Shown here: positions 3,423-17,952 of the stretch, piece by piece
Layout: each line of letters opens with the position of its first letter
Numbering within the stretch: the first letter of the stretch is position 1
Source: a bacterium
Lineage (GTDB): Bacteria > UBP18 > UBA7526
Direction of reading: 5' to 3'
Assembly (NCBI GenBank): GCA_030619985.1
Contig: JAUXAI010000012.1
Span: forward strand, 1-24,159
Length of the DNA stretch: 24,159 nucleotides
The notes under the pieces: generated by a model
Seen by the model: the letters and a program-made list of their open reading frames with translations, nothing else
The model's database searches: none
What the model was told of the DNA's origin: nothing
Position numbers and translations under genes: made by a program

Positions 3423-3506
3423 AACTAATCAACTTGTTCACTTATTAACTTGTCAACTAATCAACTTGTTCACTTATCAACTTGTCAACTAGTCAACTTA
3501 TTAACT
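3423..3506. repeat. Tandem 32-bp repeat, 2.6 copies
   Basis: Units 3423-3454 and 3455-3486 begin AACTAATCAACTTGTTCACT and differ at one base by my reading. A third, partial unit follows at 3487-3506. They are head-to-tail with no unique spacers and fill most of the pheA-hisC gap. The same vocabulary occurs in opposite orientation at 16871-16902. I see no gene in the gap. Confidence 0.85.
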
Positions 3507-16870: not shown

Positions 16871-17036
16871 AGTTAACAAGTTAACAAGTTGATTAGTTGA
16901 TAAGAAGTCATTCGGTTATGGTTAAGGTTAGGTTGTTAGTTTAGTCGTTGGGTTAAGTAGTTGGTCTTTAAAACTCCTTAACCTTTACCGAACTACCAAA
17001 CCCACTACCTTGCCCTAACCCAACTACCAATGACTT
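16871..17036. repeat. Repeat block: inverted copy of the AACTTGTTAACTT family plus a large imperfect palindrome
   Basis: Bases 16871-16902 (AGTTAACAAGTTAACAAGTT and onward) are the opposite-strand form of the 32-bp repeats at 3423-3506. From 16905 to 17036 lies a broken palindrome. AAGTCATT (16905-16912) pairs with AATGACTT (17029-17036), and GGTTAAG (16951-16957) with CTTAACC (16977-16983). The left arm is GT-rich and the right arm AC-rich throughout. Nothing coding is seen. Confidence 0.7.
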
Positions 17037-17091: not shown

Positions 17092-17952
17092 ATGAAAGCT
17101 TTTATACTGGCCGCGGGACTGGGAACCAGACTGCGGCCTTTAACATTTAAGAAACCAAAACCATTGATTGAAATCAATGGCCGACCGATCATAGACTATG
17201 TCTTAGAATGGTTAGTTAATCAAGGAATAAAAGAGGTCATTATCAATCTTCATTATATGCCGGATATGATTAAGAGATATCTCGGAGCATTGGAATTTGT
17301 TAAAATTCCCATGCGGATTAGGGGGTCTGGGGGAAAGAATCTGCTTCCCCCCAGGGGGGTGACAGGGAGGCAAGGCATGACTTTGCCGACCGCCAGAGGG
17401 GTGAAACCCCCATGGAAGTATCCCCGAAGGGGATATCTTAGGGAAGGGGAGTTTGGTCTAAAGATTACCTATTCCTACGAGAAGAATATTCTGGGTACCG
17501 CTGGGGCCTTAAAGAAGAAAAAAAAAGAATTAAAGGAAACCTTCCTGGTTGCTGCCTGTGATTCCTTAACCAATATAGATATTAAAAAAGCTCTTGCTTT
17601 CCATAAAAATAAGAAGGCCCTGGCCACCATGATCTTAAAGAAAATCAAAAACCTTGAAGAGTATGGAATCATTGGATTAGATAACCAAGGAAGGGTCTGC
17701 CAGTTTTTAAATAAATATAAAAGCAAAGAACCAGCGACTAAAGCGGCTCATACCGGGATCGCTATTTTAGAGCCAAGGATCCTGAAGTATATCCCGTCTA
17801 ATAAATTCTATGGCTTGGAAAAGGTATATCTCCAGATGCTTGAGAAGGGAGATCCCCTCTTCGGATACCTGGCAGGGGAGTTCTGGCAGGAGGTGGGAAG
17901 CCTGAAAGGCCTCGAAGAAGCCTCAAAAATCGCCTCTAAGGGCCTTTTTTAA
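17092..17952 (+). CDS. Sugar-phosphate nucleotidyltransferase with in-frame insertion
   Basis: Member of the NTP_transferase family that makes activated sugars (NDP-sugar) from sugar-1-phosphates for envelope or polysaccharide synthesis. MKAFILAAGLGTRLRPLTFKKPKPLIEINGRPIIDYVLEWL is the nucleotide-binding start, followed by EVIINLHYMPDMIKRYLG, SYEKNILGTAGAL and VAACDSLTNIDI, where the metal-binding Asp lies. The substrate cannot be fixed; mannose-1-phosphate guanylyltransferase and MurNAc-1-phosphate uridylyltransferase relatives look alike. Relatives normally pass from YLG directly to a short FGLKITYSYE strand. Here about 50 residues (66-119) intervene, arginine-, glycine- and proline-rich, encoded by a palindrome-rich DNA segment without stops. 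The insert sits between the HYMPDMI helix and the SYEK strand, where a surface loop could tolerate it. The frame after it is normal. Confidence 0.87.
   Translation: MKAFILAAGLGTRLRPLTFKKPKPLIEINGRPIIDYVLEWLVNQGIKEVIINLHYMPDMIKRYLGALEFVKIPMRIRGSGGKNLLPPRGVTGRQGMTLPTARGVKPPWKYPRRGYLREGEFGLKITYSYEKNILGTAGALKKKKKELKETFLVAACDSLTNIDIKKALAFHKNKKALATMILKKIKNLEEYGIIGLDNQGRVCQFLNKYKSKEPATKAAHTGIAILEPRILKYIPSNKFYGLEKVYLQMLEKGDPLFGYLAGEFWQEVGSLKGLEEASKIASKGLF
17321..17435 (+). repeat. Multi-hairpin palindromic element inserted in the nucleotidyltransferase gene
   Basis: Four consecutive hairpins can be drawn. CTGGGGGAAAG (17327-17337) pairs with CTTCCCCCCAG (17344-17354), with one mismatch. GGCAA (17369-17373) pairs with TTGCC (17383-17387). 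GGGG (17398-17401) pairs with CCCC (17407-17410) around TGAAA. TATCCCC (17419-17425) pairs with GGGGATA (17429-17435) around GAA. The stretch is much richer in G and C than the surrounding gene. Exact boundaries are uncertain, and the inserted coding stretch may span 17287-17449. Confidence 0.75.

Follow-up and report, generated by a model that had tools for sequence, protein, structure and literature searches.

A nucleotidyltransferase gene with 51 extra codons

The window, a 24,159-nucleotide stretch of DNA from a bacterium of the UBA7526 lineage (contig JAUXAI010000012.1), carries a PF00483-family nucleotidyltransferase gene, encoding a sugar-nucleotide enzyme, with 51 extra codons inside its open reading frame (for coordinates, see Table 1). 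Orthologs from CSMAG_2709 (L010) and UBA7526 (L011) have exactly 153 bp fewer at this site, and the ortholog from the sister genome CSMAG_2684 (L009, genome G001) contains the same extra block. Alignment of the enzyme to solved homologs is lost at residues 64 to 66 and regained at residues 114 to 120, between which the homologs have 0 residues, and this break places the insert between a helix and the next strand. These comparisons confirm the initial annotation of the sequence, which had described about 50 extra residues between a helix and a strand and a reading frame that stays open. An AlphaFold2 model of the enzyme, made from an alignment 4 rows deep, is of too low quality to be informative (pLDDT 39.5). 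A separate palindromic-looking repeat lies upstream of the enzyme gene, at positions 16,920 to 17,030 of the window; it is also found in G004:C9 (89% identity), and smaller partial matches to it occur at positions 3,423 to 3,490.

Table 1. Features of the enzyme gene and of the element within it (positions in the window)
Feature	Position	Strand	Remarks
PF00483-family nucleotidyltransferase gene, host of insertion	17092..17952	+	286 aa ORF
Left target tetranucleotide	17281..17284	+	CTCG in window copy; YTTG is family consensus
Mobile element copy	17285..17440	+	156 nt; net 153 nt versus empty orthologs
Hairpin 1 (left-end hairpin)	17287..17314	+	covarying across family
Pseudoknot 5' strand GATT	17316..17319	+	covariation
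Hairpin 2	17327..17354	+
Pseudoknot 3' strand AATC, within hairpin 2 loop	17338..17341	+	covariation
Motif GGGTGACAG	17357..17365	+	highly conserved
Hairpin 3	17369..17387	+	whole module differs among copies
Hairpin 4	17393..17415	+	CCAGAGGGG...CCCCCATGG
Terminal hairpin 5	17416..17440	+	5' foot AAG paired with terminal CTT
Right terminus of window copy	17437..17440	+	CTTA

The palindromic element that had been annotated at positions 17,287 to 17,449 is real, with its right border drawn 9 bases too far. It does consist of successive hairpins; there are five of these rather than four, plus a pseudoknot. From left to right, the element comprises the left-end hairpin, GATT, hairpin 2 with AATC in its loop, the motif GGGTGACAG, the variable hairpin 3, and a 3' part made up of CGCCA with a GGGGC/GCCCC hairpin followed by the terminal hairpin with its CTTG end. 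The predicted fold of the segment has a z score of -3.0 relative to dinucleotide shuffles, none of which (0/200) folds equally well. In a 31-sequence alignment across carriers, 96.6% of the cells for hairpin 2 and the GATT/AATC pseudoknot are paired and 12 of the 15 pairs show double changes, values that were reached by 0 of 500 shuffles. The two pseudoknot pairs are double-changed in 9 and 10 sequences, and control structures shifted by 1 to 3 columns on the same alignment collapse. The first and last hairpins of the element also covary in the alignment of copies. Compensatory changes thus maintain the hairpins and pseudoknot of the element. Conservation of its sequence reaches outside the hairpins, and entire hairpin modules vary from copy to copy; at one site common to two related genomes, comparison of the printed flanks by eye indicates that the first hairpin has been replaced.

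Dispersed copies and their insertion sites

A search for other genomic copies, in-frame ones included, had been set beforehand as a test, and it was positive. The window's own genome gave 11 BLAST segments, corresponding to ~10 copies, and four other genomes of the same family gave 13, 7, 22, and 1 segments; the DNA search found 0 segments in family genome G004. Twenty-four full copies, alignable over ~155 to 167 nt, were used to build a covariance model, which detects multi-copy relatives beyond the phylum (best E value, 6e-39) in at least a dozen genomes, including 4 of 6 genomes of one outside phylum. A second covariance model detects the element in 19 of 385 sampled genomes. The carriers are mostly draft metagenome assemblies. 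No Rfam family matches the element, even by permissive cmscan, at 17 loci with copies. The exact core patterns were absent from viral contigs, a similarity search of phages and plasmids gave no element, and no autonomous version was found among the carriers. The family is absent from Rfam and from the literature searched and is apparently undescribed.

The copies are therefore dispersed across genome sites, which is the opposite of the outcome named beforehand as contrary to a mobile repeat, namely conserved protein sequence with no further copies. Presence of the insert in the sister genome would be predicted if it were simply a protein insertion peculiar to the lineage, with GC-rich codons, but this explanation is refuted by the recurrence of the DNA between genes at unrelated sites and within further genes, antisense orientation included, and we give it essentially no credence.

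Some copies are associated with further repeats. In G213 and its relatives, the element lies within dispersed ~400-bp repeats, at least one of them palindromic (L132, L200, L204, and L205; L126, L127, L192, and L206). An extra module of 60 to 90 nt (GCGACGAATAAGGAGC...GGGCGCGAGACGGTGAGCGCCCCGGA) lies inside the element at L129, L130, L131, L132, L188, and L040; it occurs in relatives of G213, and a similar module is present in G001, which belongs to another phylum-level group. At L129/L189, reading by eye places the element directly after the apparent start codon (TTG) of an nrdR-like gene and ahead of codon 2, with the TTG restored by the terminal CTTG of the element.

The right end of the element is CTTG or CTTA in all 28 copies compared and CTTG in 25 of these, although the right-border pattern requires ATCTT, so that part of the conservation at those letters is built into the comparison. 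The left neighbor is mostly TTTG, CTTG, or CCTG and is identical to the right end in only 5 of the 28 copies. Because the right end is constant and the left tetranucleotide so seldom equals it, we assign the right end to the element and the left tetranucleotide to the target. Empty sites bear this out. In the comparison of L048 with L050, the empty sequence ...CGTGCTTG/TGCC corresponds to ...CGTGCTTG/element...ATATCTTG/TGCC, and the empty amidase sites ...AAGGTTTTG/ATCGGG and ...AATTTCG/ATTGGG (L082/L083) correspond to ...ATCTTG/AGGCATCGG...ATCTTG/ATTGGG at the filled site (L081). The enzyme gene, with its orthologs that lack the 153 bp, is another clean comparison of this kind. Insertion takes place precisely 3' of (C/T)TTG, the right end CTTG is the element's own, and no faithful target duplication is made.

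These borders bear on whether the element could be a classical MITE, a miniature inverted-repeat element that a DDE transposase moves and whose insertion duplicates the target. The element is short, nonautonomous, and multicopy, and some copies do have CTTG on both sides. However, its two ends are not mutual inverted repeats, the left and right tetranucleotides seldom agree, and a copy at a CCTG target within a tRNA-like sequence, read by eye, still terminates in CTTG. We consider a DDE element improbable.

In-frame copies and constraint on the nucleic acid

Three independent insertions into protein genes of the same bacterial family are read in frame. The first is in the nucleotidyltransferase gene and is common to two species. 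The second is in the gene for an O-antigen ligase/TPR protein in G000 (the window's own genome) and G002, where the element is antisense; the G001 and G003 orthologs lack it. The third is in a cell-wall amidase gene of G001, where the element is in the sense orientation and contributes 162 nt, which is 54 codons, near the start of the signal peptide; five amidase orthologs lack it. The extra sequence is predicted to be translated and so kept as protein in the enzyme gene and at least two other genes. Two of these genes have additional features. The amidase gene (L081) contains a second, unrelated palindromic in-frame insert at ~2700 to 2777 on the minus strand (AACCCTGTTAGAGG...TCTAACGGGGT, peptide NPVRGKSSEATASDKYRGTSNG), in place of which G002 has a shorter, different peptide and other orthologs have none. 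The O-antigen ligase of G001 (L072) has an extra peptide, TRFFTPPLKEERG, at a site distinct from that of the element; this peptide may come from a further small repeat in frame.

Each of the three coding copies is read in a different frame of the element, so no peptide is common to the three genes. Among 25 copies counted, only the two enzyme copies are free of stops in the frame that the enzyme uses, and the other 23 have stops in it. Alignment with the other copies shows an additional G and three missing bases in the copy within the enzyme gene, consistent with the survival of rare variants that keep the frame. Insertion can also be damaging, since in another phylum a copy lies in a gene, identified by eye as GH31-like, whose frame is broken there.

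The frame would be irrelevant if the insert were a self-splicing intron or were otherwise removed from the RNA. Its structure, and the sense orientation of most copies, would suit such a removal. However, Rfam gives no match to group I or group II introns, the enzyme frame has stayed open where nearly all copies have stops, and three genes have three different open frames; from these sequence comparisons, removal appears very unlikely.

Substitutions in the enzyme gene indicate what is conserved. Between the window and the sister ortholog L009, all 5 differences in the insert are nonsynonymous (0 synonymous), and the rest of the gene has 30.5 nonsynonymous and 37.5 synonymous. Synonymous changes thus affect 0 of 39 sites in the insert versus about 38 of 152 sites in the remainder (p = 8e-5). 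Across three pairs of sites treated as orthologs, differences occur at 12 of 457 element positions versus 123 of 899 positions in the downstream flanks (p = 3e-12). These counts suggest that the nucleotide sequence of the insert is held and that the peptide shows the same drift as the remainder of the protein, although gene conversion between copies could also lower divergence of the insert. Use of three frames in three coding copies likewise suggests that it is the nucleic-acid structure that is constrained and that the peptide is merely tolerated. The earlier proposal of a repeat selected both as structured RNA and as tolerated peptide therefore stands in its first half, which pseudoknot covariation and synonymous-site conservation strongly support. 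Selection on the peptide does not stand: three frames are used, other copies have stops, and all 5 of the 5 insert differences change an amino acid, which leaves tolerance only.

Orientation, movement, and comparison with known systems

With ORFs of at least 120 aa standing in for genes, intergenic copies that are co-oriented with neighboring genes outnumber those that are not by 33 to 4 in the family and by 58 to 15 elsewhere. This bias fits an RNA-level role or tolerance, and it also fits insertion of single-stranded DNA with a replication bias. In the sole complete carrier genome, GC skew tracks gene strand and does not separate these two readings.

A rival reading, which this bias favors, is that the element acts in sense within transcripts, mainly as a functional RNA such as a mobile regulatory RNA, a ribozyme, or the guide-RNA scaffold of a nuclease, and that its mobility follows from RNA function. 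Conservation of the pseudoknot, of the motifs GGGTGACAG and CGCCA, and of sequence outside the hairpins is consistent with this, as are insertions, read by eye, that adjoin start codons in another phylum. Against it, no Rfam family matches the element, TnpB-like domains in the family genomes score only below the cut-off, the O-antigen ligase copy is antisense, and lagging-strand insertion of single-stranded DNA combined with gene strand bias could also give the orientation bias. We regard a primarily RNA-level function as a tentative alternative. A stronger form of it, a mobile class of structured, pseudoknotted RNAs of 150 to 240 nt in several uncultured phyla that would spread by their own RNA-dependent means (as ribozyme or guide RNA) and be functional as RNA as well as readable as protein, seems to us unlikely.

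On balance, we favor by a modest degree of confidence a nonautonomous structured mobile element that is moved as single-stranded DNA by a Y1/HUH-type reaction in trans. Movement by a Y1/HUH-like transposase is the inferred part of this explanation, drawn from analogy. Tyrosine transposase-like activity supplied in trans would mobilize the element as single-stranded DNA, with the terminal hairpins as putative recognition structures and CTTG as the putative cleavage site. Most copies landing in genes would be lost; survivors would be those that keep the frame, at times via a small compensating indel, and that sit in a surface loop, a periplasmic loop, or a signal peptide, where they would be translated. 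A search for a Y1 partner in 16 genomes in all gave no linked gene. Y1 transposase was absent from all 6 family genomes searched, which are 53 to 93% complete. All 10 of the other carriers tested have Y1 genes, for which the base rate is 81/145 (56%), and none of the Y1 genes examined there is flanked by the element or by element ends. No nuclease gene linked to the element was found.

A similar geometry is known from IS200/IS605-type miniature elements, with IS608 as the example compared, and from REP/RAYT (GTAG) repeats: insertion is 3' of a fixed tetranucleotide, the target is not duplicated, and there are subterminal hairpins, the 5' foot of the end hairpin being complementary to the cleavage site. 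Here too a fixed short target lies directly 5' of the insertion and no duplication is made, the first and last hairpins covary, and the 5' foot of the terminal hairpin is complementary to the putative cleavage site. The origin of the right end in the element and of the left end in the target thus suggests, by analogy, an insertion geometry like that of IS200/IS605. The element differs from the IS200/IS605 group in that no cognate Y1 gene with matching ends was found among these genomes and in that an internal pseudoknot is conserved. Unlike REP sequences with their RAYT genes, the element ends in CTTG rather than GTAG, and no flanked RAYT-type gene was found. HEARO and the omega RNAs of IscB and TnpB are RNA-like structured scaffolds in mobile elements with a fixed flanking motif. 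The element shares both properties, but it has no Rfam match, no linked nuclease, and no TnpB above the cut-off in the family. It differs from DDE miniature elements by having neither terminal inverted repeats nor target duplication.

The initial annotation had compared the insert with the Rickettsia palindromic elements (RPEs), which are ~150 bp long and lie in frame within unrelated genes, with no known transposase (PMC10969869, PMC3733652). The principle carries over, since a short palindromic repeat is in frame inside several unrelated genes here as well; membership in the RPEs does not, since neither the termini nor a peptide frame is shared. RPE termini are CGTC (PMC3733652), in contrast to CTTG/CTTA in 28 of 28 copies here, and each RPE encodes a conserved peptide (PMC10969869), in contrast to three frames here and stops in the enzyme frame of most copies. 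The multihairpin structure with a covarying pseudoknot is a further difference. Intragenic palindromic repeats as such were already known (PMC3733652), Rickettsia being the best-known case, and the mobilizer of those repeats is not known. What is apparently new is a family that spans several phylum-level groups, whose structure and target are defined and for which clean empty sites and three insertions in frame are available; its pseudoknotted core is unusual and widely distributed. The family makes it possible to test by what means in-frame repeats are mobilized and to what extent selection acts on structured nucleic acids inside translated genes, and the covariance model allows the element to be detected elsewhere.
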